This document shows positions 4,451 to 47,780 of a stretch of 64,000 nucleotides of DNA, one piece after another. A program made the translations under genes and the position numbers. Positions within the stretch are counted from its first letter, which is position 1, and every line of letters begins with the position of its first letter. The notes under the pieces are model-generated. The model was not told the DNA's origin and ran no database searches. It worked only from the letters and a program-made list of their open reading frames with translations. This DNA comes from Anadara kagoshimensis (lineage: Eukaryota; Mollusca; Bivalvia; Arcoida; Arcidae). The stretch spans positions 6,408,163 to 6,472,162 of the forward strand of contig CM037866.1 in the NCBI GenBank assembly GCA_021292105.1, given 5' to 3'.

Positions 4451-4538
4451 AAGCTGCTTTTTTAAACTGTCTTTTAGACAGTTAGATGAATAAAATGATA
4501 TTTTAAATCTACGACCTTGTACACGTATATGTTTGTAG

Positions 4539-7503: not shown

Positions 7504-7893
7504 CTCATGAAAATAACAGCTATTGAAAATGTGGTTTAGACTTAGTCACTTTTAATCTTTTTTAGCTTTAGTTAATGAGTGACCAGTACTAATTTAACTA
7601 TTGTTTTATCGATGGATGATATATAAATGAAGGTGAAAATACTGATGTAACATGTCTAGAAACTATGACATGTGTATTAGAATATCATATGCATTGGATT
7701 ACGATTAATTTAATATTTACATAGGTTCATAATCAAGGTCATGTGTGAAATAATACTGAAACGGATAGCTGCGTTGATTACCAATATTTATATAGGCATT
7801 TGTAATAGAATACTGTAGGTAATGGTCATCTTGATACAAGTTGTGGAATGCAGTGCCACGATTAGTCCACTAGTGTCAGAAGGGGATATTCAA

Positions 7894-7899
7894 AATAAA
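7894..7899 (+). promoter_or_regulatory. Candidate poly(A) signal of gene 1
   Basis: This AATAAA lies about 390 bp after the gene 1 stop and just before the putative large element at 7909. A 3' UTR of that length is plausible, but in AT-rich DNA a single hexamer is weak evidence. Confidence 0.25.
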
Positions 7900-8606
7900 A
7901 AAGACAAGCACAAGAACAACCTCCTTTAAGGGTCTTTAAGGAATCCTAAAAGATCCTTAAAGAGTTCATTAAAGATCCTTAAAGCCTCCTAAAGCTCCCT
8001 TTAAGGACCACCATCTATAAGGATCTTAAAGGTCTCTTTAAGGCCTCTTTAAGGACATTTTTAAGGATCTATAAGGCTTCCTTACAGATCCTTAATGGGA
8101 TTAATTTTCAAAAATTAATTAATTTATTGATTAATGTATTTATTTTTATTTATTTATTTACTTATTTATTTATTTATTTATTTATTTGTTTGTTTTTATT
8201 TATAATCTAACCTGCTCCGAATATTATGTCCCAGCTCTAAATTAAATCAATGTACAACTTCTGATTTATTTATTTATTTATTATTTATTAAACTAAAAAA
8301 GTGTAGTTTTGACTTTTAATCATTACGGGTTTATGCCCATAGGTAATAAACATTTCATGGTTCCTAATTGAAGATCATCAACATACCCCTGGTATCTCAT
8401 CAACAACTTACCTAACTAATTGATAACAGAAGCAAATTCAAACTCATTTTAACCAGACGATAGTATATTCTACCTGAACAATTTACCGTACGTTGTTAAG
8501 TTCTTTAATTACCTAGATGGATTTGAATGTTAATTGAATCTGATGATTGATCTACGTGAGTAGTAATGTTAGAGATACTTTTAATTGTTATTTGTGTGTA
8601 AATGAA

Positions 8607-8742
8607 TAAACAAATAAATAAATATTTTTAAAAACATTAATAAATATATAAAATTTCAGACAGAGAGAGAGGGAGAGAGATGGCAGAGCAAAGACTAGTA
8701 CATCATCAGTTTTGAAACTACCATTATCTGACATTTCTCAAA

Positions 8743-8782
<40 letters not shown>

Positions 8783-8915
8783 CATATAAATAAAAAAAAT
8801 ATTTTTAAAAACTTTAATAAATATATAAAATATGAGAGAGAGAGAGGGCAGAGCGAAGACTTGAACATCATCAGTTTTTAAACTACCATTATCTGATATT
8901 TCTTATTTCATGACC
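8607..8915 (+). repeat. 180-bp tandem duplication with AATA and GAGA tracts
   Basis: The block running AAACATTAATAAATATATAA, GA-rich tract, GGCAGAGC.AAGACT, CATCATCAGTTTT and ACTACCATTATCTGA occurs twice (8607-8743 and 8787-8905), separated by an (AATA)n run at 8740-8782. Another TTTA run lies at 8140-8190. No coding potential. Confidence 0.85.
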
Positions 8916-9081
8916 TTGAAATGTGTGTGCATTCATATAAATAAATAATCAAAAAATAAAAAATAATCATATAAATAAATAAAACTCAATTTCATAGACA
9001 AAACTGGTAGATTCCTTTGCACTATCGTCTTCATGTAATAACTCCCCAATCGATCCAGTAAAATTTTCTGATTAATTTGTT

Positions 9082-9084
<3 letters not shown>

Positions 9085-9112
<28 letters not shown>
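9085..9112 (+). repeat. (GA)n microsatellite
   Basis: Uninterrupted GA dinucleotides. Confidence 0.95.
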
Positions 9113-9115
<3 letters not shown>

Positions 9116-9279
9116 CGGAGGTGAGAGTTGTCTATCGGAACTTTTTCCCACAAGCAAAATCTATAAGCATGATTTTTTAATCATAGAATAGGTCCACAAT
9201 CCAAGTTAACGAATTTCGGGCTAATGAAGTTGTGATTTATAATAATACAATTAAAAGAAAAAAAACAAACATTTATATC

Positions 9280-9530
9280 CAGAGGCGGATCAAGAATTTT
9301 AGAAAGGGGGGGATAGGCATGTAATGTGAGAGCCAAAAGTTCTAACCTTCTAGGGGGTCCGGGCATGCGCAAAAATCCTGCATTCTGGTGCAATCTAGGC
9401 TGCATCAAAGAGGAAAAATAAGCAATATGTATTTCGGGACAGGTATCAAAAATAAAAATGAACAATATGTATTATCAACGACAAAAAAGGGGGGCATATG
9501 CCCCGTTTCATCCACAATCCTAGAACTGAC
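9280..9530 (-). repeat. Interspersed repeat 'AGAGGCGGATC...GGGGCATATGCCCC'
   Basis: The left end AGAGGCGGATCAAGAATTTT and the right GGGGGCATATGCCCC / CATCCACAATCCTAG resemble a widespread invertebrate non-autonomous element with purine-rich G runs near each end. The open frame across it is incidental. Confidence 0.45.
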
Positions 9531-10072
9531 AGACACCACAACATAACTAGCAAAAATCTTGATCTCACTGCCTTGGTTCACATGTTTCGGGAAAATCTAG
9601 TGTGAGAAAACTCGCTTTTCGAATATGGGTTCTACTTTCAGTGCACTTCGATTTCCTTCACTATCTTTGAACTTAAAGTATGCAATTTTGTTACAAACTG
9701 ACAACATATTAAACTGGGACAGGCCATAATCTCAGATAATATGTCAGTTCGCTCAAGTTTTACATTCTTGACTAATCTAAAATTCTTATTCATTGAATCA
9801 AATAATGATATAAATGAAATAATCTTAACACAGGAATGAAACTCTATACTCTGCTATCCCGTTATCCTGATTATGTTGAGAAAAAAGTAAAAAAATATAT
9901 CAAATGGTGTTGATCAAACACAAAAAGATATTAGCAGTGTGCAGCTGACGTTGGAATATCTAGGAGAGAAAGAGAGAAATTAGAGAGAATTTGGATTTGC
10001 AGTGTCGTGTACGTTTTTCGTTCTTTTTAAAAATAATTCAAAAATGGTTTATCATGCACTGTCAGATCCAGC

Positions 10073-10101
10073 GGGATGGGGATAGGTGGGTGGGGAGGGG
10101 G
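10073..10101 (+). other. G-quadruplex-forming motif
   Basis: Five G-runs of at least three separated by 1-6 bases: GGG, AT, GGGG, ATAGGT, GGG, T, GGGG, A, GGGGG. This satisfies the standard G4 pattern and stands out in an AT-rich window. No gene start is adjacent. Confidence 0.7.
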
Positions 10102-10537
10102 CACCCCAACAATTTCCCCTGCTTTCCGACTTTTTTCTCTCTCGCTTACAGCTAATAATCAAGCAACCATTGGATGGACCAGTAAATTAGTGGTATTGAT
10201 TAATTAATTCATGTACAGGTAGGAATTGCAATCAGATGATGATGTAATGTACCAGTGCGCTGAGTTATGAAAGAATTCAGGTAGTGTTGACCAGTCCTAG
10301 GTGATAATGTTATTTACCTGATCACTTAAGCATGAAAGAACCCAGATAGGGTCAGTAGATGACGTTAATTAGTAATACTAATTAAGATACTTCTGTCTTG
10401 TCAGAAAGCATGAATTTTAAACAGGGTTGTTATCAGTACTTCAAAAATAATTCTTATTCAAGGACAGATTTCATAAAGAATGATTCAATTAATCATAAAT
10501 GAATAATTGAATCTGTCTTTTGGGACCACGAGTCAGA

Positions 10538-10540
<3 letters not shown>

Positions 10541-10571
<31 letters not shown>
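10541..10571 (+). repeat. (GA)n microsatellite
   Basis: Perfect GA run of about 31 bp. Confidence 0.95.
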
Positions 10572-10573
<2 letters not shown>

Positions 10574-10963
10574 AATTAGAATAGTACATTTTTAGCACAT
10601 AAGATTATCTTTTTTGTATATGTTTATAGCGCAAAGTTCTATTTCCATATAGAAGTCCCAACTTTTGTGAATTCTCTGTACATTTTTTATTTATTTTCAA
10701 TTAGTTTTAATAGATAAATTACGTCTCATTTGACTTTTTATTCTATCCGTCCGCTATTGGCTTTATGGATCAAATCTTAAATGATAAGTGCTATTTTCTG
10801 GTACAAATGATTCTTGTGTGTTGCACTATTATACTGACTATTTAGTATAATAATGTAATAATTCATTTAATATAATAAAATTAACTTGAATGTTCAAATG
10901 GTTGTCACATAGATAATTTTAAACAAATGTGGAAAAAACGGGAGGAAGCAGACCTAACACTTC

Positions 10964-11046
10964 GGTAGCAGCCAGCTCAGTTGGTAGAGTGTCGGCTGTC
11001 CGCTCCAGAAGTGGAAGGTCGCGGGTTTGGTCTCTGGCCGGGTCTG
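10964..11046 (+). mobile_element. tRNA-derived SINE head
   Basis: CAGCTCAGTTGGTAGAGTG resembles the A box of a tRNA, and GGTCGCGGGTTTGGTCTC a decayed B box about 45 bp further on. No cloverleaf with a proper acceptor stem can be drawn, so it is a SINE head and not a tRNA gene. Confidence 0.65.
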
Positions 11047-11757
11047 ATCCAAACATTAGAAAGGGTAGTGACTATTCACTCGGAACCGCTTTTGAGAATG
11101 ACAATGGTAATAATAGTTTTTTAAACAGTTCTACCATATTTATAACATTAGGAAATGTCGCTAGTTTTACTGTTTCAATTTGTAAAGAGCACTATTATTA
11201 TATTGTTTAACATGTGCACTCCCCCTCTCTCTCTCTTCGGAAATTGAATTAATTTCTACATAATGAAATTATTTTATTTAACATTCTCACACTTTCCCTC
11301 ATAAAACAGTCATTTAAGTTACGTGCAAGATTTTGAGGATAGATTAAGATTATTACAAATTATCATTAAAACTCGTCCTTCGATTTTGTACAGATTATTA
11401 AATGTCGCTGATACAATATTAAAGTTATTGATCAAACAAGGTAATAAGTATTCGTGTTACAACAAAAATGTAACTAAATTATAAAAGACACTTTTAAATA
11501 AAATTTTCTGAAAAATTTTGTTTTAATTTCAAGAATTATTAAAAACTTTTATTGATGAAGAAGTAGTATGTTTAAGATTATATACATAGAAATGGATATC
11601 TGATCGATAATTGATCTTTATAAAAGTGATGTTTGCCAGTCAGATAAATAAGTGTATTACAGGTAAAAAGTGTGATATGCCTGCCTGCCTTCCTTTGATC
11701 AGAAATCTTTGGTCAGTTAAATTAACCAAAAATTATTCCTCTCAAGAGTGAAAGAGC

Positions 11758-11762
<5 letters not shown>

Positions 11763-11808
<46 letters not shown>
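11763..11808 (+). repeat. (AAT)n microsatellite
   Basis: About 15 perfect AAT/ATA trimers. Confidence 0.95.
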
Positions 11809-11811
<3 letters not shown>

Positions 11812-12441
11812 TATATACATTTTTAAAATTCAGTAAAAAATTTCATTTATATATTTTATTATTAAATCTGAAAGATTTAGAGCTAGTCACGTGATCCTTA
11901 GGCTACCAGGTACTGATATAGTTTAAAAATATATGATGGATATTCAAGATATTAAAGATTCTTAAAATTTTAGTTCCATTACGGATATTTAGGGATGTCC
12001 TTAAAGAGACCTTAAAGACACATTTAAGGTCCTTAAAGCCCCCTTAAAGATCCTTAAAACCTAATTTAGTTAGTCTTTAAGGGGGCTTTAAGAATCCTTA
12101 AAGGTGACTTTTCTTCTTGTGATGGACATGCGCTCTATAGGATTGGTCGCTAGTAGGAAGACCTGTCTTATTCTTGATTCACACTCCACTGACTCTGTGC
12201 TTACTTACAAAGCCGGGGCTGTCACTTTGGCTAAAGGCTTAAAGTTACTGGTTCCAGCAAATATCAAAGTTTACAAATTATAATTTATATTAAATTTTTT
12301 ATACACGGGATTGGATTCCTTAGTGTAGTTTTTTCGAAAATGTTAAATCTTTCAACATTTTTAATAATTTCATTATACACATATGATTCAGTTTATGAAT
12401 CTCCGTATAGGCTTTATGTAAATGTATTTTGTTGTTCACAG

Positions 12442-14498
12442 ACCAAAAGAGAAAACCAGAATCAACACCAAGAAATAATAAAGGGATTATGGAGACAGTA
12501 AGTTTAATAAACCAAACAAAAAGATACAGGTCCATGATAAAATCTCGATTCCAAAAGTAATGTTTAATTTAGAAAACTTTACTGTAAATGTTAGATTCCA
12601 TTAAGGGAGCAAGACAAAGTTATCCAACAATACATAAGTAGCCCTCTGGGTAAGCAATAGCGTCGGAGATGCTTAGTCTGCTTACAACAGAGATAACATC
12701 CCAGTTGTTGTAATTATTATCATTTGTAGTATTATATAAAAATAATTATAACTTAATAATAAATCAGCACTACGCCGTTCCGAACTAAAATTCATCACCC
12801 TTTAGATTCTTTTTTTTCAGCCCGAGGTTCGAGTTATGAATGTTTTTTCTACCATCTTCCCATGTTTGAGATAGAGATTTCCGCTTGCAGAAACAATGGA
12901 AGAAATTTCTATCTTTACCTCCATGTGCCTTTCTTCACCTCCACGTGCGGCTCTCAGTGACGTCACAATCAAAGGACAATTGAGTGATGTCATGTCGTGG
13001 CGACATGACGTCATCTTGCTGGAAAATGACACCCGAGTCTCCAAAATTTATATATTTTCACTGCATTTCAAATGTTTATTTTGGGAGATTAGAATAAATG
13101 ACCTTATTTTCTAGTTTATACATTTTGTAAAAAATAAAATCAGGTACAATCTGTCCGATGGTCATATTTATTTTTATGTAAAACGTTAAATAACAAAGTT
13201 AGATTTACAAAGATGGCGTCGATGTCGATGTGACTGATACTTCAAGCAAAAACTTTTCATCAAAATGGAAGAAAAAAATCAATCATGAGTTTATCCATGT
13301 AGGATATGAAAATCTCACCCGAGGGGTTGAATATTTCTGTCAAAGACTCGGCAAGCCTAGTCTCCGACTGAAATATTCAACCCCTCGTGTGAGATTTCCC
13401 TATCCTACATGGATACTCATGATAGATTCTATTAATCTTTTCCTAACACGAGTTGTGAAATTCAAATTTATAATGTTGAAAACTGAAGAATTTTCGCTAT
13501 ACTGAGGCATTAAGTTCTTTGATGTTGGAGAAACCCAAAATACCCGGAGAAAATTACGGTACCGACAGGCAAACTGGCAAATTGTCTTACAAGAGAAATT
13601 TAAATATATATTCCTAGTTGTAAGTTGTAGAGCGAGAGAGTTCTAACCCGTTTGGAGCATCCATCGCCACTTTCCTGGTTAAAATCGCGTATTTATCTCG
13701 GTTTGAGATTTGGACATGAACTGGTATGTTTGTTTTTGATTAAAAATTATTTAATTTTTACCTTCAATTATATCAAAATATTCATAGAACAAATGTGCTT
13801 TGAAATAAGTATATAATTATATCTTTAAAGCGTTGCACGTGTCAATGTAATTCTTATTGATTTAATTTCAGGATTTGAAAAACAGTTTACACGAAGACGT
13901 ATCAGAAGCAACAATACCCTCTACAAGTGTACAGTCCGACGATTTAACTTTTGACCAGGATGAATTTCAAAGATATGCACACGATTGTCAGAAGACAGAT
14001 ATTTGCAAGTCAATTAAAGAAAACGATGATGGTAATTTCCTTCAAAAGCATAGTAAATCTAAAACAACAAACAGAATTGGATTGAACCATTGTAAAGCTG
14101 CAAAGCCACTAAATTATATTGAGGTGGAAAGTCCGGTAGATAGAAAATCAACGGTGCTAGGTCAAAGCTTGAAACATCGATCAAATTATTATTTTATACC
14201 TAATGATAATGGTGTAATTGTTCCATTGAAATCAGATGATAGCAAAATCATCCTAATCCTGACCAAAACATGCAAAAACATCAAAAGGATATTGAAGATG
14301 TTGGTATCTGTAATCGAGGACTTGAAAGAGCATATGGGTACATCGTCTGAAGCTTCAAATTCTGGTTATATTTATCGTTGGATAATAAATAGCAACAGAA
14401 TAGATGACATAAAAAATCATGAATATGTGGATGGTGACGGTAACATTGACAACGATTATGTGAATTATGAGTTTTTGAAAAACAATTCCTGTGCTTGA
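12442..14498 (+). CDS. Cytoplasmic-tail exons of a receptor-like protein, 5' partial
   Basis: Two exons are inferred. Exon 12442-12497 follows TTGTTCACAG, ends before GTAAGT, and encodes 18 mostly polar and basic residues (QKRKPESTPRNNKGIMET). It enters in phase 1 and leaves in phase 0. Exon 13872-14498 follows TTAATTTCAG and is open for 208 residues to TGA, by far the longest frame in the window. It has no membrane segment and carries tyrosine motifs NYIEVE, GYIYRW, HEYVDGDG and DYVNYEFL. YVNY matches the pYxN pattern also seen in the YMNY end of gene 1. The composition suggests an intracellular signalling tail (inference). The missing upstream exon should be a membrane exon ending in phase 1; the gene 1 membrane exon is the nearest candidate on this strand. 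A decayed copy of the tail is at 15443-15690. I recognise no named family. Confidence 0.6.
13282..13423. mobile_element. Hairpin MITE with ~58-bp arms
   Basis: ATCATGAGTTTATCCATGTA...GAGGGGTTGAATATTTC is mirrored by GAAATATTCAACCCCTCGTG...ACATGGATACTCATGAT around a short loop, with a few mismatches. The 91-codon frame over it is an artefact of the palindrome. It lies in the intron before the 208-codon tail exon. Confidence 0.8.
13640..13750 (+). mobile_element. Weak retroelement 3'-tail relic
   Basis: GATTTGGACATGAACTGGTA followed by TGTTTGTTTTTGATTA matches the extreme 3' end of the RT element; upstream matches are poor. Confidence 0.4.
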
Positions 14499-18216: not shown

Positions 18217-18593
18217 TCATTTGAGACTGCGTTGGAAATGTATTTGACTAATTCTTATTTGCAAAGTACAAATTTTCCTTTTTAAATCTTTATATTTGTA
18301 TATAATAAAGGATGTTAGAATGCGAATAAAAGTATATCTAGCACGTATTGTAATTATAATAAAACATCCGATGATAATAGCAATTAAGATCAATATTATG
18401 ACTGGCATCACCATCACAATTAAACCAATGTTCTGTTGATCTAATCCATATCTTGGCGTTGTTTTTCTGTATTTCTGAAAAAATACAATCTTATTTAGTT
18501 TCATACTACATGTAAATACATCACGATAAAAATTACATAAAATGACGATAAAGTTTGAGGACGTAAAATATTTCTCACAATAATAATCAAAAA

Positions 18594-18775
18594 CAAACAT
18601 ACTTATCCATGTCAGAATCACGATCCAGAACCAAAGTAAAATCTTTTGAACTGACAAGTCAGGTTAGACACGTGAAATTACATCAGAGAAGAGAGGCTGG
18701 GTACTCCGGAAGGGTAATCACCTCCTGTTAAGCTAGCTACACCTTCCACGTGTTGTATAAATCAAAATGAAATGT
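18594..18775 (-). mobile_element. Retroelement 3'-end fragment (copy B)
   Basis: Minus-strand match to the RT element's 3' UTR, including GTTAGACACGTGAA, CTCCGGAAGGGTAATCACCTCC and AGCTAGCTACA (read on plus). It lies in the last intron of the gene 3 pseudogene. The adjoining 146-codon frame mixes this repeat with the membrane exon. Confidence 0.7.
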
Positions 18776-31511: not shown

Positions 31512-32165
31512 ATCCTGTGAACTCAACATACAGATATATAGCTGACGTTCCGTCTCTTAATCCTACATTTGGAGACTGTGAATGTCATATACCCTAGTGA
31601 GCTTGAAATAAAAGACACGACTGATTTATCAAGTTCTGCTTCATATTTAGACTTATACCTGATTTATGATGCCCACATAAGGCTACATTTGAAATTTTAT
31701 GGCAAACGTTATGGTCAACTTTCCTCTTCTATGCAGCAATATACCTGCTCATGTTGTATTTGTTTCGCAATAATTACGCTACGGTAGAGATTGTTCCCAC
31801 TGCAGGCTGCTTGCAAATAAATTGTTGACTCATGGATATTGCCAGCCTAGGCTTATCAACGCCCTCAAAAAGTTTTATGCCCGTCATCACAGTATTGTTG
31901 ATAAGTTCGATGTCTCTGTGTCCAGAATTGCCCTGATTATATTTGACGTCCCATAGTTTCATATACCTTTCACACAATTTTGATTATACACGTGGCGGGT
32001 GTAGCTAGCTAAACATGAGGTGCTTACTATTCAGGAGCACCAGACCTCACTTCCCTGGTGGAAGTTCACGTGTTTAACTTAAGTTGTCAGTTCCAATGTT
32101 TAACTTTGCTTCTGGATTGTGATTCGGATATGGATTAGTATGTTTCTTTTTGATTTTAAATTTAA
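31512..32165 (+). mobile_element. Reverse transcriptase C-terminal part plus 3' UTR (copy D, longest)
   Basis: Begins in the catalytic region: TYRYIADVPSLN, where active relatives have YIDDV, so one catalytic aspartate is replaced. Then comes YPSELEIKDTTDLSSSASYL, YGKR, VNFPLLCSNIPA (frame-shifted) and LANKLLTHGYCQPRLINALK with KKFYARHHSIVDKFDVSVS up to a TAG at about 31953. The 3' UTR continues to TGTTTCTTTTTGATTT at about 32155. Motif order and the DFSTLYTTIP box upstream are Penelope-like; I see no GIY-YIG nuclease. The copy is inactive, with frameshifts and an in-frame TAA after VSQ. Confidence 0.8.
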
Positions 32166-33186
32166 AAAATGTTATGAAATTTTGGTTCATTCTGGATTTG
32201 ATAAATGACTTGTGCATTTTAAATTAATACATAATACATTTAATTAAATTAACAAAACAATTATTAAGAATATCAAATTAAAATAAAACACATATATATA
32301 TATATATATATATGGCGATAAATGTTCTAGTACAGTACTGTACACCTAATTGCAAAATGTTCTCATGTCCAAAAACTGTTTCTACACATGCACACATCAC
32401 ATGTCCATGTCATCAAATTGTACTGTTTATACTGTTCAACACATGACACATGCCGGCTACTGTAGAGGCATAAATCACAACGGTATAAAGATCACTTCGA
32501 CACAACGACAAAAACAGTACTTATTAACATCAACACTAGAAACATCCGAAAATGCATTTAAATACCTTCTGGCTATTCATTGTGTGTAACAATTACTTGT
32601 TCAATAAATGTACGCATAATGTTCATACATTGACACTTATTATAATTTTAAAACCCTGTATTATCCCTAACTGGTCATCTACAATTACAAATACATCAAT
32701 TCTGGAAATTTGGAAAATACCATTAAACTCAAAATTGTGTAATAAACATCAATTTGCATAAAATTATTCCAACAATAAGCACATGTAGAAAACCCCTTTT
32801 ACAAGTATCTAACTGGTTGTGACTTTAGATAGTTATTGTCATTATAATAATAAAATTGTTACATAATAATTATTTTAAATTTTCACTGGTAATTGTATTT
32901 ACTCGTAGTTTCATCCATTAATATAAATATTCATAAAATAATAAAAACAAAAATACCATCAAATTAATCATAACAATAATTATAAAAAATTATAAAACTT
33001 ATTGCTGTCAGTCAATGCAAATATCAACACCAAGTTTCTCCACACAGGAATTAAAGTAAGACCATACAGATGTAAAATGTCTCAACCACACAGGTCCAAA
33101 ATACTTTCACTACACAGGTGTAAATAATGTAATCACAAAGGTTTAAGTCTTAACCACACACTCACAGGTTTAAATTTTTAAACACA
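32166..33186. other. AT-rich intergenic DNA
   Basis: No exon recognised. It contains a short (AT)n run at 32293-32313 and several loosely repeated ACCACACAGGT words at 33090-33175. Confidence 0.5.
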
Positions 33187-36340: not shown

Positions 36341-37188
36341 AAAAAATCATTGAATGCCTTTTCACTACCGTAGCCTTACAAGCCGTGTTCTATCACATCC
36401 TTCCATATTCTATCATAACCTGTCCGCTAGCCTTGGCTTGTGTATCTAAGGTGCATAGTCAAACTTCAAGTCGAATTTGTGCGTCGGTGTGTGGTATGTA
36501 TTGGTAACAAAAATCGATAACTTACAAACTGACGTTTGTTCCCTTCAATAACCAATTCTGAAAAGTAATACAAAAAATGTGGAAATATTTTCATTTAAAA
36601 TATATATTAAAACAAATCAGAAAAAGTCTGTACTTGGCGACAGTCGAGGCAAACGAAAACAAAAAACTTTACAATTGTAGAACACAACCACGCCAGAATA
36701 GGAGAAAACAACACATTCTTAACACACAAATAACGAAATTCCAAATTGCCAAGGAACACAATAAAATTGTTGTTATAGAACTATTACAATGCTGCAAATA
36801 ATACTATGCTTTCAAAACAAGTAAAAACAAGTAAAAAGGAACATTTTATGATTTAAAATATGCATTTTTAAACCAAAAAATGAACAACTAGACCGTAGTT
36901 TCACAGTGTTATAACAACCATTAAGAGATAGATAATATGTCTTGTCACCCTTCAAAGAAATTTTTCGCATAACGATTGGTTAACTTGCCGGGGTACATAG
37001 AACTATGTTCGGATATCTGCCGGGGTACATGAATGCACGCGACGTGTAGCGGTCAAAGGGAAGTAACTCGTACATATCTGATGCCTAGTTACGGTAAACA
37101 AACATGGCGACAACGTACGTAAGACACACAAAATAAAAAATGAAAGTTAAAAAGATCTACCTGGTAACACTTTGAAAGGTGACAATAA

Positions 37189-37327
37189 CGTTACACAGGG
37201 CTTTTGTAGGTTACACGGCCCCACATACCCCGTCAAAGATAAATGTACCTTTTGCCTGTGGCTCAGGGTACATAAATCTCTGACGGGGTACATGGGGCCG
37301 TGTAACCTGCCAAAGCCCTGTATAACT
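37189..37327. repeat. Hairpin in duplication copy 1
   Basis: GTTACACAGGGCTTTTGTAG...CCCCGTCAAAGAT is mirrored by ATCTCTGACGGGG...TGCCAAAGCCCTGTATAAC. The equivalent in copy 2 is 39431-39567. Confidence 0.85.
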
Positions 37328-37533
37328 CATAGTACAGTGCACCGTACAGAATATTATGTTCAAAGGAAGCTAGAAGAGTGATACAAAATACAGATATAAT
37401 CTCATTAAATAAGGAATGTTATGTTTTGTATTATCGCTAATGGTGTCATTAATATTCAAGTAAAGGACTGTAGTACACGGATTGAAATTAAAAATTCTAA
37501 AGCATTAAAGTTTTCTTTTTTACAATTTTACTG

Positions 37534-37695
37534 ATGTTGATATTATTACAAGATTGTCATCAAATAGAAGATGATAGTTACATTAAGAAACCCAAGACTA
37601 CCGATCACAAAACCTTAGACGAGTTTATAGTGATGGTTTTTCACATGCCCAGTTTCGAAGGTGTTGAAATTGATTTAAAATCTTTTATAGTGTAA
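37534..37695 (+). CDS. Small unexplained open frame, 53 codons
   Basis: From ATG to TAA it encodes a polar peptide containing DDSYIKKPKTTDHKTLDEF and FEGVEIDLKSF. Its counterpart in duplication copy 2 (about 39865-39985) has a stop after DDT and a later frameshift, so it is not maintained in both copies. Probably chance, noted because its composition is protein-like. Confidence 0.15.
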   Translation: MLILLQDCHQIEDDSYIKKPKTTDHKTLDEFIVMVFHMPSFEGVEIDLKSFIV

Positions 37696-37968
37696 ATAAA
37701 TATTTTTAATAGTTCACAAAAGCATCTAAATTAGCCCGCTAAAACATGCATTTTATAAACTCCAATATTGTGATTAAATTTTACATAATTTTAAAATTTA
37801 TTATTTATCGTACAGTTATCATTCAATGATTATGCCGCCGCGCTCTAGTTTAATCTTCGTAAATGTTTTCATGATGTTTATTTTCATGAGTAATCTACTT
37901 TCACTATTTAAGCAGACCGCATTTATTCATCTAAAAATATATAAACATCAATTTATGTGTGGGAGATT

Positions 37969-38051
37969 TTATATCGCCTGTATTATCCTACCATCGGTTG
38001 GTGCGTCTCCATTACATTCGTTTTCAACATCCGTTTCGTCCCTCCGATTTC
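37969..38051 (-). CDS. Second tail exon (B) of gene 2, possible alternative terminal exon
   Basis: Minus-strand exon after TTGTATATTTCAG, same length (83 nt), same entry phase (1) and same stop position as tail exon A at 40387-40305. Encodes NRRDETDVENECNGDAPTDG then RIIQAI. Tail A reads NRRDKTNFENKCNGELLTYG then RLIPVI. Many substitutions but no indel or stop in 26 codons suggests that at least one period of selection kept the frame. The membrane exon could splice to either tail. No complete membrane exon lies between, only the truncated piece at 39060-39113. A conserved AATAAA (37803-37798 on minus) follows. Confidence 0.5.
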
Positions 38052-39059
38052 CTGAAATATACAAATAATATTGTCATCCATAAATTATATTACATGTTTA
38101 AAATTGGTCATATCATTCAAGACTCTTTTCAAGAATTTTTTCATAAAATCAAATTGTTGCAAAAATGATTCCATTAAAACTAAATATTTTTTGGGAGGAA
38201 ACAGTGTTCATAAAAAACAAACATTCCAACCATTTTGAGCTTTGTTCCAAACATAAGTAACATAAAGAACAAAATGTATATTACAAAATACTGCAAAACA
38301 TTTTATGTTATAAGTATAGTTTAAAATGATGATAATGATTAAGATTTAAATCTTTGTCAAATATAAATTTGTATAGTTTCTTATTGATGTCAGTGCATAA
38401 AATTGTGGGTTTTTTTTGTCTTCTTGTCAACCCACACTGTTTAAAATGCCTAATATTATTTCAATGCCTCATTATTTTATAAGTGTAGTGTGGTTTATTT
38501 TTTATATATATTTATCAAAGGTAACAAAATATGTTAGAATATATGTATGCCTTCAATTAAAAGTGCATTTGATTCAATTGTAACTGGTAGAATTCTGTTA
38601 ATTCACTGTCAAAGAAACAACATTCACGTGAAAGGGAAGAGCACCAACAGTCCTATCCCAACACGTCTGTTTATCAAATGTACGAAATTGTCGAAGTATT
38701 TGTTTCAAATTATTAAATTTGAATAGGAAAGACTTAATGTTATTTCAATACTTAATAATGCTTTATATTTCACTTTCTTTGAAACCCCATTGTAAGAATA
38801 TTTGGAGTAAAAACAACACTAGTGGAAATTGTAAAAAAAGTATGATTACCCCATTAAACCGTGTCAAAATTATTTACTTCTGACAAGTGACTTTAGAGTA
38901 TTTTTAAGTCATGACGACAACAAAGTACCATCTTAATTCTAACAAAAGGATTTGTTTTAAAAATTACATTAACAAAAAACTAAATTATTTTTTAAGGTTG
39001 ACAACCTATCTTTAAGGATAAGTACTTTCATTTTTCGTGTCATGTGTATTTTATTTTTT

Positions 39060-39113
39060 AAAACTAGTATGAGAATTGATTATACTTCTTATCTTCCTTC
39101 GTCTGATCAGGCA
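39060..39113 (-). pseudogene. Truncated copy of the gene 2 membrane exon
   Basis: Minus-strand sequence reads CLIRRRKIRSIINSHTS, matching CLIRQRRIKSIITSHTS at the 3' end of the gene 2 membrane exon. The upstream part with the membrane helix is missing because the duplication breakpoint falls here. Confidence 0.75.
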
Positions 39114-39430
39114 TAGTACGAACAAACAACAACTAGACCGTAGTTTTACAGTGTTAAAACAGCGATTACGAGACAATATGTCTTGTCACCCTTCACAGAA
39201 ATTTTTCCGCAAAGAAATTGGTTAACTCTCCGGGTTACATAGAACTATGTTCGGATATCTGCCGGGGTACATGAATGCACGCGACGTGTAGCGGTAAAAG
39301 GGAAGTTACTCATACATATCTGACGTCTAGGTACGGTAAACATACATTGCGACAACGTACGCAAGTCAAACAAATACAAAATTGAAGTTAAAAAGAACCA
39401 CTTGGTATCAATTTGAAGGGTGACAAAAAC

Positions 39431-39567
39431 GTTACACAGGGCTTTGGCAGGTTACACGGCCCCATGTACCCCGTCAAAGATGAATGTATCCTTTGCCTGT
39501 GACTCAGGGTATATAAATGTATGGCGGGGTACATGGGACCGTGTAACCTGCCAAAGCCCTGTATAAC
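39431..39567. repeat. Hairpin in duplication copy 2
   Basis: Counterpart of 37189-37327, with better-preserved arm pairing near the ends (GGGCTTTGGCAGGTTACAC / GTGTAACCTGCCAAAGCCC). Confidence 0.85.
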
Positions 39568-40097
39568 TTAAATTATAGTGTACTGTACAGAATACTATGT
39601 TTTAAGGAAGCCAGAAGAGTGATCTAAAATACAGATATAATCTCATTAAATTAGGAATGTTATGTGTTTTATTATCGCTAGTGGTGTCATCAATATTCAA
39701 GTAAGGGACTGTAGTCCACGGATTGGAATTAAAAATTCCAAATATATCTAAAATGTTTTTATGATTAAAATATAATGACCATATTTAAAGTTTAATTACT
39801 TACTTACAGAAGCATTAAGTTTTTCTTTTTTTTTAAATTTTACTGATTTTAAGATTTTCATCAAATAGAAGATGATACTTAAATTAAGAGACCCAAGACT
39901 ACCGATCACAAAACCTTAGACGAGTTTATAGAGTGGGTTTTTCACATTCCCAATTCAGAGGAGTTGAAATTGATATGAAATATATTACATTGTAAATATA
40001 TAGTTTTAATAGTTTACCAAACCATCTAAATAAGTCCGCTGAATTGTGCATTTAATTACCTTCAATATTGTGATTAAAGTTTACATTACTGAAAAAT

Positions 40098-40103
40098 TTA
40101 TTA
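40098..40103 (-). promoter_or_regulatory. Conserved poly(A) signal after tail exon A
   Basis: AATAAA on the minus strand about 200 nt after the stop codon. The same hexamer is kept at the homologous position (37803-37798) in the other duplication copy. Confidence 0.45.
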
Positions 40104-40225
40104 TTCATCGTCCAATTATCATTCAGTGATTATGCCACGCTCTAGTTCAATCTTCCTAAATGTTTTTATGATGTTTATTTTTATGAGTGATCTTCTTTGA
40201 CTATATGAGCAGCCTGCATTTATGA

Positions 40226-40228
<3 letters not shown>

Positions 40229-40284
<56 letters not shown>

Positions 40285-40285
40285 C
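40229..40285. repeat. (TA)n microsatellite in the 3' UTR of gene 2
   Basis: Long TA run present here but not at the homologous place in duplication copy 1. Confidence 0.95.
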
Positions 40286-40304
40286 AATTTATGTGTGGCA
40301 AATT

Positions 40305-43300
40305 TTATATCACGGGTATCAGCCTACCATAGGTTAATAATTCTCCATTACATTTGTTTTCAAAATTCGTTTTGTCCCTCCGGTTTCCTGAAATATACAA
40401 ATAAAAAGATTGTAAAAATACTGTCATCCATAAAATATATTGCATGTTTAAAAATGGTCATATCATTCAAGAGTTTTAATTGTTTCACAAAATCAAATTG
40501 TTGAAAAAAATGTGCCCGTTTTATGAGTAAGTTTGAAATGATGATGATGATTAAAATATAAATCTTTGCCAAATAAAATTTTATTTAGTTATTTATTAAT
40601 GGCAGTGTATGAAATAGTTTGGTTTATGTCTTTATATATTTATCAAAGGTAACAAAGTCTGTTGAAAATATGTATGCTTTGAATTAAAAACCACAAACTG
40701 GTAAAATTGTGTTAATTCACTGTCAAAGAAACAACATCCACGTTATAAGGAAGAGCACGAAAAGACCTATCCAAACACAATTTCAAAGTATTTATTTCAA
40801 ATTGTTAATTTTAAATAGGAATGACATAAAAACGGTCTAAAAATGACACTTAATAATGCTTTCTTTGAAACCCTATTCTAAGATTATTTGGAGTATACAA
40901 CACTAGTTGAACTATTAAACTGTGTCAAAATTATTTACTTATGACAGGTGACTTAAGAGTATAATCAAGTTATAACTGCAAAAAGTACAATCGTAATACT
41001 AACATTTTTTTTAAATTATGCATGTTCCCACTACATGGACTTTGTACAAAGAAGTAGGCTGCCTAGGCTTAACAAGGCCCTCAAAAAGTTTAATGGCCGT
41101 CATCACAGTATTGTTGATAACTTTGACGTCTCTGTGTCCAGGATTGCTCTGGATATATTTGACGTCCCATAGTTCCATGTTCCTTTCACACAATTTTGAT
41201 TTCACACGTGGCCGATGTAGCTAGCTAAACAGGAGGTGCTTACCCTTCCGGAGCACCCGGCCTCACTTCCCCTGGTGGAAGTTCACGTGTCTTACCTAAC
41301 TTGTCAGTTCCAAAGTGTTTACTTTGCTTCTGGATTGTGATTCGGACATAAATTAGTTAGTTAGTTTTTGATTAACAAAAAAAAATTATCGTTTTTTAAG
41401 GTTGACAAACTATCTTTTTTCGATGAGTACTTTGATTTTTCTTGTCATGTATATTTTATTTTTTTATAAACTAGTATGAGAAGTGATTATACTTTTTATC
41501 CTTCTTTGTCTGATCAGGCAAAATATCCATCTACCAATACACATAGACAGTATCAATAAAATTAGAGGCACAATTATAATGATAATTAATGTAGTGTCTG
41601 GTTTATCTACTGTAGCTTCGAATAATGTTGTTTTCTCTGTATTTCTGAAAAAAGAAACATCGATTGAACTTCATACGTGCAACATAATGTACAAGAGATA
41701 AATTAGAAACTTGTTATAAATTGTCCGATGTCTTAAATTGTAAATAATTAGATTTGGCAAACATGATTTACGACCCGGCAGTGTCTCTAAATAATATTTT
41801 CAATGTTCAAATGTAATTCTTACATGACCTGCGTTTTCCTTCATATGAAACATGAAAAGAGCTAGTTGTGGTATAACAAACGATATACCCATCGCTGTTC
41901 CGATTTAATTAGCTTAAATTATGACGTCATGTAATGTTCCGCGAACAATGGATGTGACGTAATTTTTATTCATAAAATCATTTATTTCAATGGAAGAAAA
42001 ATCAACAGCCGCATTGTTTCAATGAACCTTTTTGCAAATAGATAGTATAATGTATTTCCGAAGAAAGAGTTCGCAATGTTTATTTGAATTTGTTTTATTA
42101 TAGTCATGTTAGAACTGATATGATCAACATTTACCACGGGTAAATGTTGACATGCGGCGAATATATCACTCAGTGGCAAAACAACCCCGTAATATATTCT
42201 TCCGCATGTGAACTCCGGCCCGTGTATTTTTTGACGATATACCACGGGTAAATGTTGATTATTTCTCAAATATATGTATAGGAATGATCAAATTATATTC
42301 TTAAAATATTTAAAAATTGTAAAACAAATTACAGGTATAAAATATTAATAATAAATGCTTTGATTTAAAAATCGCCACATCTTTCTCGTCTTATAATTCT
42401 ATTATTATGAGTGATAAATATTATTACAACACGGTCGACATTGACAGAGTTCAAGGGGAAAAAAAATTCTCATGCTGATTAGATATGAAATTGTCCTGAC
42501 CCAAACTTGACTATATTATTCCAACACGAAAGCTGCAACGCTGAATTAAATAAACTAGTGATAAATCAAACATTACCTAATTTTGCAGCACTTGACGGCC
42601 GTTTTGGAATAAAAGTATTAAATTAATAAAATAATAATTTGAATTATTTATATAAATCGCAAATTATCTGTTTATTTTATACTACATACACACTAGGGAA
42701 GGTGTAACCATAGTCATCAATGTATATGAACTTGCAATTACGGGATGAACACCGTTGATTCAACAAGCAGCAAGAATATTTCCCTGTATCGTTCTTAAAT
42801 AGACATCGGTTGTTGTCAATTTTTCTTCCTGTGGGATCCTGAAACATTTATAAGAATATATTTACAATTCATATCAAATTCTGTGTAATAAACTATTTGA
42901 TGAGTGATTCGGTCTATCACAGAAAAGACCGAAAGCGCCACGTATGACCTTTCGTTTTCTGACGTCATAGTTTTGTATCACCAGTAATGTATGAATATAT
43001 AGGTAACATGACTACTTTTATAAACACAAAGAATCCGATTATTACTAATGCACTGTCATCCAGTTCTTTCCAGTCAGAATTTCTTACCAATTCAACTTTT
43101 AATATTGTAGTGTCAATATTAAAATGAATTGTAATGACACAGAAATTGTTTTTGGTGTTGTCGTTTTTTTTGTTGTGTTTTATTTTTTCTTTTTTTTTTT
43201 TTTTTTTCTTTTTTTGACAACTGGTGGGCGGAGTACCCAGTTTAATTCTAATAAAATCCGTTGGGTATTAAAAAGAAATTTTCACGAAAAAACATGAATG

Positions 43301-46300
43301 AATTATTCACATTTCAAAACTTTGTAAGTTGTAAGCGTCCGATTGTAATTATAAGCACTAAACTTTGTTTGAAATCGGTCTATGATGGTTTAGATCGAAT
43401 AGTTCTCGCGCTAATTTGTCATAAACGGTTTCGCGGTTTAATGCTTAATTAGACTGAGTTAGCAATTGTCACATTGATTAGTGCATTAGTATTTCATTTT
43501 TACTACGATAACTTTACACAACGAAGCAAGCTGCTTAAAATTGATTGTTGAATCAGGGATATTACAAGACAAGGCTAACTAATGCCCTCAAAATGTATCA
43601 TGGTTGTCATCACAATATTGTTCATAAGTGTGTTGTCCATAATACCGTAGATACATTTGACGCCCCATGGTTCCGTGTTCCTTACATTCGAAACTAGAGA
43701 TATAACACATTGCGTAGGTGTAGCTAGCTAAATAGAAGGTTCTTACCCTTCCAAAACGTGTATTGCCGATATTAATATTCAAACGCAGCGATGTCAAAAG
43801 TCTGAAACTGGAAGATATAGGGAATATGCAAGGCTGATAAAAATATTTAACTATGAATGAAATTAAATGATTGATTCTTCTATTCTTTATTAGTTGAACT
43901 CAAACTTTTAAATAAATTATGCAGATTATTCTATATTATTGGACTTACCAGTAAAGCTACCTGATACTTTGATGAACATTTCAGAGTCTTGCAATCGTAA
44001 GTATCTAAGGAAAGAGTTATGTCAGGATCTGCGAAATTAAATAATAATATAATAAAATGAAAACATGTTCTGGGCAATATCTAAAATAACAACATAATAC
44101 AAATCTCTAAAGCTTATACAGAGGGTAAAGGATATTTAAAACCTAGAGACACATTTTAATAGTGCAAAGCAAGAGATATGCATAATGCACTGATATTTAC
44201 AACTATTCAGCATTCATTTCAAAAATACTAAATAGCATCAACAATATTGCACGCGAATAATAAGAAGTTCCCATCCCAAAGAATCGTTAATGACCTACAT
44301 AACTGCACATATCGCATATTTCATACGAACCAAATAAAAATCTGTAATTATGTTTTTGTATTTTTTTAATTTTTTTTTATGTTAAGACTACCTTCTAAAT
44401 AGTACTGTGTTCTGCCGCTATCGTGTTTAATATATATATTTCTTGAGCTATAAGTTTGCTTATGAATTATGCCAATAAATATTATTATAATATTATTATA
44501 AAATAAATTACATTTGAAGTAACTTGCCTATGACAGATATTATTTTTTCTATAATAAGTTCACGCTCACTAATTTTTCCGATTGTGCAGGTGTAGGTACC
44601 ATTTCTTTCCTTTGTGACATTAAAGATAGTCATCTCAATGTGCAAAGATTCTGTAATGGTGACTTCAACTTGACTCTTGAATTCATCCTCAATTGTAAAA
44701 TGAGTTAGCGGTGCTATGGTTACAATTAGTTCACGTCCATGTTTTATGTATGCGTAGTCCATCTTGGAATGTTTTGATATATCCCATCGCAGAACCACAT
44801 TTTCATGTAAACAACCAATTTCGCCATGAACATTACCTGAAAACAAAATCAAAATGCGAAATGTTGAATCTACGCATTCTATATAGTATTACCTTAAAAT
44901 AATAAATAAATAAAAATAAAAAAGAAATACATTTTAAAAAAACTCTGTACATTACATAAAGCGTAAAGCTGTTTATATGGTTTTGTTTCGATCTTTTTTC
45001 TATATTAAATTTTATATGGCTGGATATAGGGCGTACGGCCAAAACAAGGATTAACAAAATTAAAGGGTCTACCCATAAGTACATCGATATATTAAATAGC
45101 CTGGTTAATAATTAATAACAACAGCGCCCTCAATAAACTTAGTCCAGCTGTAGTCAAAGAAAAAATGATGCCCAGCTATGGACATATATGTACATGGATA
45201 AGAAACCCAAGAACGAAAAGATAAAACCAACTCTTCAAAGCTTCAAATTTACGGAAAGATATTAAGTTAGGATCATTTAGCTGTGACACGCTTTTAAGAA
45301 AGATTATGAAGAGAAATAAACTCCTCATCCAGTGTTCCGCATATGCATCCGATTTTGGAGACAAAATATTGCAGTTTTTAAAATAACAGATTATGATTCC
45401 GATCATTTAGAGGGTATTTCCTTTGAAAGCGAACTACAGAAAACATCAACAACCGGACGATTTGTGAAAAGTGGATAAAGTAATCAAGCGACGTACACGC
45501 AGTATTCATTTCATGTTTAACCGCAGTATGATGTATTCGGTTTCTGAAAAATGGACCGGTGGGGTGGCGACCTCTGCAATTCACAACTACCAGACTCTTC
45601 AAGTTCTTCAGTTATTTGATTTATTTCTTATTGTTGCTTGCTTAGCCACTATCTGAGCCTCTATCAGATCTTAGATATCGTCTTAGCGGCAATAGACAAT
45701 ATTCTTAATCAGTTAGAGATGCGTTTGCCCTATCTTCGAATAACACATTAGGTGTTTTTGAAGTAACCTCAGAAACTTTAGAAACATTGAATGAACTTGC
45801 AATGGAATAATCCTCATGTTTGTCAAAGTGGAGTTAGAAATTAATCAATTGTCGGCTAGAAATAAGAAATAAAATGTTAATGTTTGTTTTGTGTCCTTCG
45901 TTTTTCATGTTTTCCATATTGTTCGATATAAGTGTATCCGCAATTTGTGATGAAATTAATATGTTTTTGCTCTGTTTCAATGCAATAATTCCATCATATG
46001 TTAATTGGTATTTAATTGATGAGTGTCAATAATTGCCAGGTGCTTTGGAAAGGTTGCCGAGAGCAGTTGGTGCAATTGATGACACCTCAACTGAAATCCA
46101 TAGACCACAAGTAATGCCACAGGCTCTGTTTTATTTTGTATACATATATTTTCAACCTAACTTGTCATTTTCAAAGATTTTACTTCTAGATTGTGCTTTG
46201 GATATGATTTAATATGTTTGTTTTTGATTTGGTAGGCGAAGTGATTTTATAAACAGTTATATAGTAATAAGTACTTAGATTACAATACTTGACTTGATTT

Positions 46301-47570
46301 TACAATCGTTTACTTTTGATGTTAATATATCAAATATTGGCGGTCATCTTGGATAATGGCGGCAATTTTACAAGATAGATGATTTATAGGGCTTTAATGT
46401 CATTCTGGAAAAGTTTCTAACATTATTTTCTCAAAATAAAGTAAAATTGCTATTCAATAACGATTAAGATATATGCAAGGTGTTATTCTACCAACATAGG
46501 CAGCCATATTGGATTTTGACAGCCATTTTTATCTTTTGTGTGGTCACCGTTAAATTTGTATTCAATGACTATTAAACTACTATCATACAAAATCTCACGC
46601 TTGTATCACAATTTGAAAAAAATGGCCCGAAAAAAAGTTTTATCTGCCGCACTAGCTGCTCTAATCGACTAACATGGAAGTGTTTAACCAAGTTTATTTA
46701 AAAATAGACATTGGAATTTGAAAATTTCCGATCGATATTCAGAAAATTTAGTGATTCGCTTCAAGATTTCACTTCAAAAACTTTCTCGAAAAATCGTACT
46801 ATCTATGGGGCGCCGTTTTACTATTTATTCACTGTTTAGTGATATCAATAATTCGATTTTTAGATAACCATAATTCGATTTTTTGATATCCATAAATCGA
46901 TTTATTGATATCACTAATTTGTCCTTATTTTAAGATATCCATAAATCGAGTTTGTGATATCAATAATTCATTTATTGATGTCCATATATCGAATTATTGA
47001 TATCACAAACTCGATTTATGGATATCTAAAAATAAGGACAAATTAGTGATATCAATAAATCGATTGATGGATATCAAACAATATTTGCAATATTCTTGAA
47101 AATAACGAATTTTCCCCATTATGACGCTGCGGAGAGGGAGAAATTATTTAAGTTTTTTCCGATTTATTGATATCCATAAATCGTCCTTATTTTTGAATAT
47201 CAATAAGTCGAATTAGTGATATCCATAATTCGATTTATTGATATCAATAAATAAATTAGTGATATCAATAAATTGAATTAGTGATATCCATAAATGCAAA
47301 TGAATTATTGATATCCATAAAACGAATTATAGATATCACTAATTCGATATATTGATATCCAAATATCGAATTATAGAAATCAATAAATTGAATTATTGGT
47401 ATCCATAAATGATTTATGGATATCACTAAATAGTGAATAAATAGTAAAACGGCGCCCCATAGCTATCTTCTTTAACCAACACCTGAGCATGTTATGTTCA
47501 TGATTATGTAATCTCTTAGGCCATGTTGAATGTTCACAGTCAGCAGTACCTGTGTGTATTAATTGATTTT

Positions 47571-47617
<47 letters not shown>

Positions 47618-47780
47618 TTCGTTTTTGTATACAGCTCAACCCTCATTTGGTATAAATGTTCAATAAATAAATAAATAAAATGAGATTTATACTATATTTA
47701 AATAATATACTAACATACGTACCAGAAACTATACCCAAAAACAACGTATGAAGTCCAAGAAGCCAGTAACGTTTATCCAT
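40305..47780 (-). CDS. Gene 2: two-Ig-domain single-pass membrane protein, complete
   Basis: Six exons are inferred on the minus strand: 47780-47723 (signal peptide MDKRYWLLGLHTLFLGIVSG), 44836-44528, 44028-43949, 42838-42690, 41644-41493 and 40387-40305. Phases agree at every junction (1, 1, 0, 2, 1), giving 276 residues. All introns are GT-AG except the second, which starts GCAAGT (GC-AG class). Residues 21-122 are a V-type Ig domain with C28, W37 and RNGTYTC (C103). Residues 123-199 are a cysteine-rich Ig-like domain (C135, C140, C161, NDTGKYSCC 172-173, C179, C184) interrupted by an intron. The helix is about 218-243, then a basic CLIRQRRIK and a tail NRRDKTNFENKCNGELL ending at TAA. NxT sites: 92, 98, 165. 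If the weak GTATAA donor of exon 5 is not used, translation stops at 41464 (258 residues). A cell-surface receptor or adhesion protein is inferred from the architecture. I recognise no named family. Confidence 0.82.
41024..41388 (+). mobile_element. 5'-truncated retroelement insertion (copy E)
   Basis: Contains the codons RLNKALKKFNGRHHSIVDNF then DVSVSRIALDIFDVP and stop (TAG), followed by the full 3' UTR (ACACGTGGCCGATGTAGCTA, CAGGAGGTGCTTACCC, GAAGTTCACGTG, GGATTGTGATTCGGACAT) and ending at TTTTTGATT. Absent from the homologous point of duplication copy 1 (about 38965), so its limits are set by comparison and it inserted after the duplication, or was lost from copy 1. The insertion lies between the membrane exon and tail exon A. 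Confidence 0.85.
42122..42258. mobile_element. Small hairpin element with TCAACATTTACC ends
   Basis: TCAACATTTACCACGGGTAAATGTTGA is itself a palindrome, and its right half recurs at 42240-42258. Inner arms CATGCGGCGAATATA and TATATTCTTCCGCATG also pair. It lies in intron 4 of gene 2 and creates the incidental 95-codon minus frame there. Confidence 0.6.
43545..43790 (+). mobile_element. Retroelement 3'-end fragment (copy F)
   Basis: TTGATTGTTGAATCAGGGATATT, AATGCCCTCAAAATG and GTCATCACAATATTGTTCATAAG follow the RT C-terminal codons, then GACGCCCCATGGTTCCGTGTTCC and GTGTAGCTAGCTAAATAG from the 3' UTR. It lies in intron 3 of gene 2. Confidence 0.7.
46150..46235 (+). mobile_element. Retroelement 3'-tail fragment (copy N)
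   Basis: AACCTAACTTGTCA, TTTACTTCTAGATTGTG and ATATGTTTGTTTTTGATTT match the extreme 3' end. It lies in intron 1 of gene 2. Confidence 0.6.
46803..47462. mobile_element. 660-bp TIR element built of GATATC repeats
   Basis: Terminal inverted repeats of about 40 bp start CTATGGGGCGCCGTTTTACT and are flanked on both sides by CTAT (46799-46802, 47463-47466), a likely 4-bp target duplication. The interior is made of variants of ATTGATATCCATAAATCGA. A nearly 200-bp palindrome is nested at 46882-47078. No transposase. A relative with the same GGCGCCGTT start and ATCCATAAATCGAATT interior begins at 48244. It lies in intron 1 of gene 2. Confidence 0.9.
47571..47616. repeat. (GT)n microsatellite
   Basis: Perfect GT run about 75 bp downstream of which intron 1 continues to exon 1 of gene 2. 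Confidence 0.95.

Follow-up and report, generated by a model that had tools for sequence, protein, structure and literature searches.

What kind of gene occupies the minus strand between positions 47780 and 40305 of a 64,000-nucleotide stretch of the Anadara kagoshimensis genome (assembly GCA_021292105.1, contig CM037866.1, here C10), and how has it come by its present form? The stretch, C10:6408163-6472162, is referred to below as the window, and its positions are counted from its first letter. We rebuilt the gene, here called locus A, and found that it is very probably real and more than a chance assembly of open frames, because paralogs repeat both the order of its exons and their splice sites. 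It belongs to a family of at least eight loci on the same contig, between which front and back halves have been exchanged. On balance we favour the view, with some reserve, that its product is a short-tailed, single-pass type I recognition or ligand-type protein in an immunoglobulin superfamily (IgSF) cluster that evolves by birth, death and module exchange.

The six exons of locus A, of 58, 309, 80, 149, 110 and 83 nucleotides (nt), join in frame to a stop at 40305 and give a spliced product of 262 residues, with cumulative phases of 1, 1, 0, 2 and 1 across the five junctions. Exon 1 (47780-47723) contains the start codon and the signal peptide, MDKRYWLLGLHTLFLGIVSG, and ends at a phase-1 donor, G/GTACGT. 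It is followed by exon 2 (44836-44528, phase 1-1), encoding a V-like immunoglobulin (Ig) domain with a GC donor (ATAG/GCAAGT), and by two exons that divide a cysteine-rich second domain between them: exon 3, or C1 (44028-43949, phase 1-0, donor GTAAGT), carries the first half and exon 4, or C2 (42838-42690, phase 0-2, type 1 of the two 3' modules described below), the second. Exon 5 (41644-41535, phase 2-1) encodes the stalk and transmembrane (TM) helix, LIIIIIVPLILLILSMCIG, whose 19 helix residues have a mean Kyte-Doolittle hydropathy of 3.2, and exon 6 (40387-40305) supplies a cytoplasmic tail, GNRRDKTNFENKCNGELLTYGRLIPVI, and the stop; its frame is open in all four homologous copies. Donors of exons 1 to 5 read GTACGT, GCAAGT, GTAAGT, GTATGT and GTAGAT, and the acceptors are AG in five of five cases, the second intron being of the GC-AG type. 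Such junctions make up 0.8% of those in human protein-coding genes, according to the available part of PMC7242645, so the conserved GC donor of the family is unusual, not exceptional. The complete gene claimed by the first-pass annotation, with its five junctions and their phases, was thus reproduced at the same coordinates, and its 276-residue product was replaced by one of 262. Intron 1 also contains, at 46834-47431, GATATC-rich arrays of imperfect 22-bp units, inverted copies included.

Relatives of locus A are concentrated in one interval. The genome search covered 1.115 Gb in 36 contigs and scored only the best candidates, so that distant relatives elsewhere remain possible. With a 258-residue version of the product as query, all 24 matches at E≤1 fell in C10:6.265-6.805 Mb; with a type-2 C1-C2-TM query, 21 of 24 lay at C10:6.266-6.804 Mb and the other three, at E 0.25-0.41, elsewhere. 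Neither search placed a confident family copy outside the C10 cluster among these best-scoring candidates. Eight loci could be resolved at C10:6.26-6.81 Mb, seven besides A within 0.55 Mb, interleaved with a second Ig family. On the plus strand lie locus C (V exon at C10:6265566, with a TM exon perhaps at 6280696, E 0.02), locus B (V at 6318553) and locus G (C1 at 6354673, its TM-exon frame closed by an early stop). On the minus strand lie locus W (C1 at 6428170; window 20008-18217, comprising C1, a C2 with an in-frame TGA and a membrane exon with an early stop), locus D (V at 6609702), locus E (V at 6766033, its C2 and TM exons assigned by position only, at least 9.5 kb downstream of C1) and locus F (V at 6804826, with a frameshift in V). 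In loci A, D and E the frame is uninterrupted from the signal exon through the TM exon.

Wherever exons were found, window matches being listed at E up to 0.01, their order is identical at every family locus. The C1 exon is present and ends at GTAAGT at all eight; the V donor AG/GCAAGT occurs at six of the six loci with a V exon, and the signal-exon donor G/GTACGT at all four with a signal exon (A, D, E and F). V exons of the paralogs are 69-82% identical. No V exon of W was seen in the window among the matches listed, and none of G in the stretch fetched. At C10:6533-6615 kb and 6684-6768 kb, Ig exons and family genes are spaced as if a segment had been duplicated at a period of about 150 kb. 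Other tandem V-set families apparently exist as well, as dense exon arrays above the V-set Pfam cut-off at C10:3.38-3.51 Mb and C18:57.7-58.2 Mb.

The 5' and 3' parts of these genes give conflicting trees. In a V-intron-C1 tree of loci A to F, B and C group at 100% bootstrap with A on the side of D, E and F, whereas the C2 tree of all eight loci sets A and B against C, D, E, F, G and W, again at 100% bootstrap, across a dividing branch of 0.79 substitutions per site. The C2 exons of A and B are 0.966 identical in nucleotides, compared with 0.54-0.59 between A and the other six. Informative sites in the V exons of A to E favour the split of A, D and E from B and C (13 sites) over that of A and B from C, D and E (4 sites), with at most three for any other; between 44250 and the end of C1, none of the splits prevails.

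The conflict extends into non-coding sequence. Loci B and C have a common 5' flank (C10:6315468-6318900, 80-88% identical, with an insert in C), and that of B aligns with A, D, E or F at repeats, at a single 241-nt piece in D and over the few bases just before V, and nowhere else. Upstream of V, A and C are unalignable, and A has intron-1 sequence in common with D, E and F, as judged against a subject set from which the window's 36-64 kb was left out; its signal exon likewise has counterparts in these three. The homology of A to B on the 5' side stops at the V acceptor. With gaps left out, A-B identity is 0.75-0.86 over 44850-44251 and 0.85-0.96 from there to 40451, including about 0.90 in the 3' introns. 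The zone in which A switches from D/E/F-side sequence (5') to B-like sequence (3') spans 42838-44250 on the minus strand; an exchange point within the C1-C2 intron, read from BLAST segments, was discarded, as window profiles instead place the start of the zone near 44.25 kb.

On these alignments, the family has two 5' modules, each comprising the upstream region and V, and two 3' modules of ancient divergence, which run from the second half of domain 2 onwards. All four combinations are present: A is I-1, B is II-1, C is II-2, and D, E and F are I-2, a four-gamete pattern that implies exchange between loci. Loci E and F, whose 5' blocks agree at 99.9% of 921 nt and whose C2 exons agree at 91.0%, look like a repeat of module exchange on a recent scale, and an assembly artefact may be at work there. 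A dispersed repeat of about 300 bp, found in the window at 41061-41386, 31845-32170, 30-272, 18584-18768 and 577-829 and also in several paralog stretches, is a possible substrate for ectopic recombination.

Selection on the ectodomain was measured in ten V+C1 pairs, with loci F, G and W set aside; the pairs are non-independent and the P values one-sided and uncorrected. The ratio of nonsynonymous to synonymous differences per site (pN/pS) ranged from 0.34 to 0.76, below 1 in all ten pairs and with P<0.05 in six, including each of the four that involve A (A-D 0.34, P 1.7e-4; A-C 0.46, P 4e-4; A-E 0.45, P 0.007; A-B 0.57, P 0.018). Nei-Gojobori (NG86) omega was 0.30 to 0.76 for V, with ten of ten pairs below 1; below 1 for C1 in 20 of 21 pairs, the exception being B-C at 1.43; and below 1 for C2 in all 14 computable of 15 pairs, in a set without E and W. 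The ten pairwise omega tests gave no indication that V is under positive selection. Earlier annotation from the letters alone had described a complete gene of no named family in a local, diversifying cluster; the gene, the local cluster and the absence of any named family above cut-offs held up. Every pairwise V omega is below 1, which gives no support to the diversification being adaptive.

The second Ig family interleaved with these loci consists of long-tailed receptors. One such gene lies on the plus strand of the window at 4499-14498, which we take to be the 'gene 1' of the first-pass annotation, with an Ig exon at 4499-4816 (Ig_3, E 1.1e-11), a second ectodomain exon at 5821-6165, a TM segment within 7324-7500 and a tail exon of 210 residues at 13866-14498. 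Its tail contains three motifs resembling immunoreceptor tyrosine-based inhibitory motifs (ITIM-like), LNYIEV, SNYYFI and VNYEFL. Two paralogs lie on the minus strand at C10:6285-6292 and 6361-6367 kb, downstream of the plus-strand loci C and G; the tail at 6361 kb has the same three motifs, and that at 6285 kb has LNYIEV and a variant, SNYYSI, the third being unseen in the stretch fetched. Long-tailed genes therefore form three convergent, tail-to-tail pairs with C, G and W, the window copy (plus) facing W (minus). Upstream of the window gene, at 2445-4261, a 42-bp satellite is repeated about 42 times in an array that also precedes the paralog of this gene, at about 6367-6371 kb.

The succession B(+), G(+), long-tailed(-), long-tailed(+), W(-), A(-) mirrors itself, a symmetry suggestive of an inverted segmental duplication; identities of about 0.90 between A and B, 0.936 between the C2 exons of G and W, and 84-90% between the long-tailed blocks fit such an event. 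Close to D, E and F there are weaker Ig exons, at 6592, 6741 and 6790 kb and 29-30% identity, hinting that the same association may hold there.

On the interpretation that we prefer, the protein would be functional and run from a signal peptide through a V-like Ig domain and a cysteine-rich domain encoded by two exons to a TM helix and a tail of about 20-27 residues, which would place it at the cell surface. Tandem duplication and inverted segmental duplication would have enlarged the family and recombination reshuffled it, with the split second domain allowing a V module to be attached to a different membrane-proximal module. The V domain would be the contact site, binding its partner in cis or in trans, and the short tail would add little signalling of its own, leaving this to other receptors such as the products of the neighbouring ITIM-like genes. 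Those long-tailed receptors could themselves be the partner, possibly in an immune context. A bolder extension, which we think improbable, is that the whole 0.55-Mb interval is a ligand-receptor, histocompatibility-like complex that arose independently of vertebrates, in which recombining short-tailed ligands co-evolve with tail-to-tail, ITIM-bearing receptors.

Several observations weigh against this interpretation. Three of the eight loci (F, G and W) are broken, and signal exons of B and C went unrecognised in the 7.5 and 6.5 kb upstream of them, even in a heuristic scan. The TM helix of B is less hydrophobic than that of A (1.97 against 3.2), and over the TM exon and read-through end, about 60 codons, the A-B pair has an omega of 2.03. 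Composition shuffles of the neighbour yield three or more ITIM-like motifs in 1.8% of cases (P 0.018), making them only moderately unusual. On the domain side, no Pfam family scored better than E 0.0033 in five members, all scores listed being below cut-off; the cysteine-rich second domain had no convincing Pfam profile match in the same five; and AlphaFold modelled the V exon from five sequences poorly, with strands and coil only at a predicted local distance difference test (pLDDT) score of 39. The tail exon adds to this list: A and a second copy, A2, agree at 65 of 81 positions, as diverged as most flanking windows and with no excess conservation; their differences fall 8, 4 and 4 by codon position (5, 0 and 3 for the two copies in B); and the sole ITIM-like motif of the locus A protein, LTYGRL, is missing from the other three tail copies. 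A candidate signal-exon match in B was disregarded at E 1.1.

The tail exon is accordingly the weakest part of the gene model, and the tail probable, not proven. The membrane exon of A can also be read on to a TAA at 41464, for an alternative product of 258 residues with a basic IRQRRIKSIITSHTSL tail, and the gene might simply stop there, the tail exon being spurious. The read-through end (41464-41534, minus strand) has an AATAAA at 41460 and is alignable and well conserved in locus B; its stop is not common to B, however, and A-B identity continues beyond the stop of A. The tail reading frame, by comparison, recurs. Copy A2 (37972-38052, minus strand) lies in a tandem duplication of about 2.3 kb (36876-39142 against 39121-41552, 71-78% identical) that takes in the 3' end of the membrane exon together with the tail exon, and B has two further copies. 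One open frame is shared by all four copies and runs in each to a common stop; the acceptor is conserved, and a length difference of 21 nt preserves the frame. An ending in the membrane exon is thus a real contender that we nevertheless doubt, and both isoforms may exist. For the type-2 genes, a cytoplasmic tail exon was sought and none found convincing.

A second alternative concerns function. A V domain followed by a second domain, a TM helix and a short tail is a common adhesion layout, and locus A could encode a non-immune homophilic or heterophilic adhesion protein, similar in layout to CTX, JAM or CD2, that merely sits in a duplicating region. We call domain 1 Ig-like because its tryptophan and NGTYxC motif are conserved, and assign domain 2, Ig-like in the first-pass annotation, to no family: W17 and N78-G-T-Y81-x-C83 are invariant in five of five members, and the first cysteine is present in four, with tyrosine in locus C. 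V-set (PF07686) matched all five members at E≤1 (best E 0.007) and Ig_3 four of them, with V-set scores of 16.6 bits for the first member and 17.4 for the 262-residue product against a gathering cut-off of 26; the Pfam matches of the product and its paralogs are sub-threshold wherever scores were listed. NCBIfam contained nothing relevant (best E 0.039). Profile searches of the PDB returned only matches at E≥0.001, among them those to CEACAM5, contactin-3, neuronal growth regulator 1, sodium-channel beta-3, CD48 and OX-2 (CD200), in keeping with an adhesion protein; in the four alignments inspected, however, they mainly covered the generic F-strand motif. Copy-number turnover, module exchange and ITIM-like neighbours also suit recognition or immune families better, and we regard a purely adhesive role as rather unlikely.

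Two narrower resemblances were considered. Matches to viral genes (UL141, E 0.032-0.072; adenovirus E3 CR1, E 0.026-0.096) were rejected as sub-threshold and mostly over the generic Ig motif. In the CD2/SLAM family, the V domain has no canonical disulfide, the second domain has two disulfides and the tail carries an immunoreceptor tyrosine-based switch motif (ITSM). In the present family the candidate disulfide pair of V occurs in four of five members, domain 2 has several conserved cysteines, and a reading by eye of the four tail sequences gave no ITSM (TxYxx[VI]); a resemblance to CD48/SLAM was not established.

That locus A is a recent pseudogene, or a relic of a birth-and-death cluster that is no longer expressed, would fit with its broken relatives and with a tail exon that has no excess conservation; all its exons are open and its splice sites usable, however, and its V+C1 pN is below pS against all four paralogs compared, a test that a very recent loss in A alone could escape, and we consider this scenario improbable. 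Least credible of all is that the trees of the 5' and 3' parts disagree through selection or an error of alignment rather than exchange, since the short C2 alignment (147 nt), the deep divergence of types 1 and 2 and the purely positional link of E to its C2 exon, 9.5 kb downstream of C1, are outweighed by a conflict that reaches introns and flanks, by the presence of all four combinations and by the E-F contrast.

We return, then, to the cluster as a source of recognition proteins built by birth, death and exchange. Swapping front and back halves between copies is a way to make new recognition molecules, and germline exchange of V and 3' modules, with four combinations in one assembly, offers a concrete system for how new recognition proteins may arise in animals without rearranging receptors; with ITIM-like genes lying tail-to-tail beside it, a ligand-receptor relationship would be simple to test. 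Among vertebrates, paired-receptor clusters such as the leukocyte receptor complex (LRC/KIR), CD200R and SLAM/CD2 place Ig receptors with short tails next to others with ITIM tails and evolve by birth-and-death and exon exchange. The C10 interval would resemble them in these respects and in the pairing of a V with a second domain; unlike theirs, its two classes are different families arranged tail-to-tail, and the Pfam and PDB searches gave no match to them above noise.

Molluscan IgSF recognition proteins include the fibrinogen-related proteins (FREPs) and VIgL, as the available part of PMC11999971 describes them. FREPs carry a fibrinogen domain, whereas the 262-residue product has no fibrinogen-related match at E≤1 and does have a TM helix. 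The same source describes the oyster membrane receptors CgIgIT and CgIgIT2 as immunoreceptors, and these resemble the neighbouring long-tailed genes rather than locus A: CgIgIT2 has five Ig domains and a tyrosine motif, which the text calls an activation motif (ITAM) and a cited title assigns to an inhibitory receptor, while in locus A a single Ig domain is recognisable and no tyrosine motif is conserved. A likeness in organisation exists with the Alr allorecognition complex of Hydractinia, where the portion of PMC11067881 consulted describes clustered, single-pass IgSF membrane proteins with many pseudogenes; C10, known from one assembly, differs in having two local families interleaved. Clustered invertebrate IgSF families with pseudogenes (PMC11067881) and oyster Ig receptors with tyrosine motifs (PMC11999971) are therefore already known, as far as these sources describe them. 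In a literature search that lay mostly outside subscription journals, we found no matching family and no account of four-way reassortment with ITIM-like neighbours. What sets C10 apart from these systems is the preserved four-way reassortment of modules, together with ITIM-like genes arranged tail-to-tail beside them.

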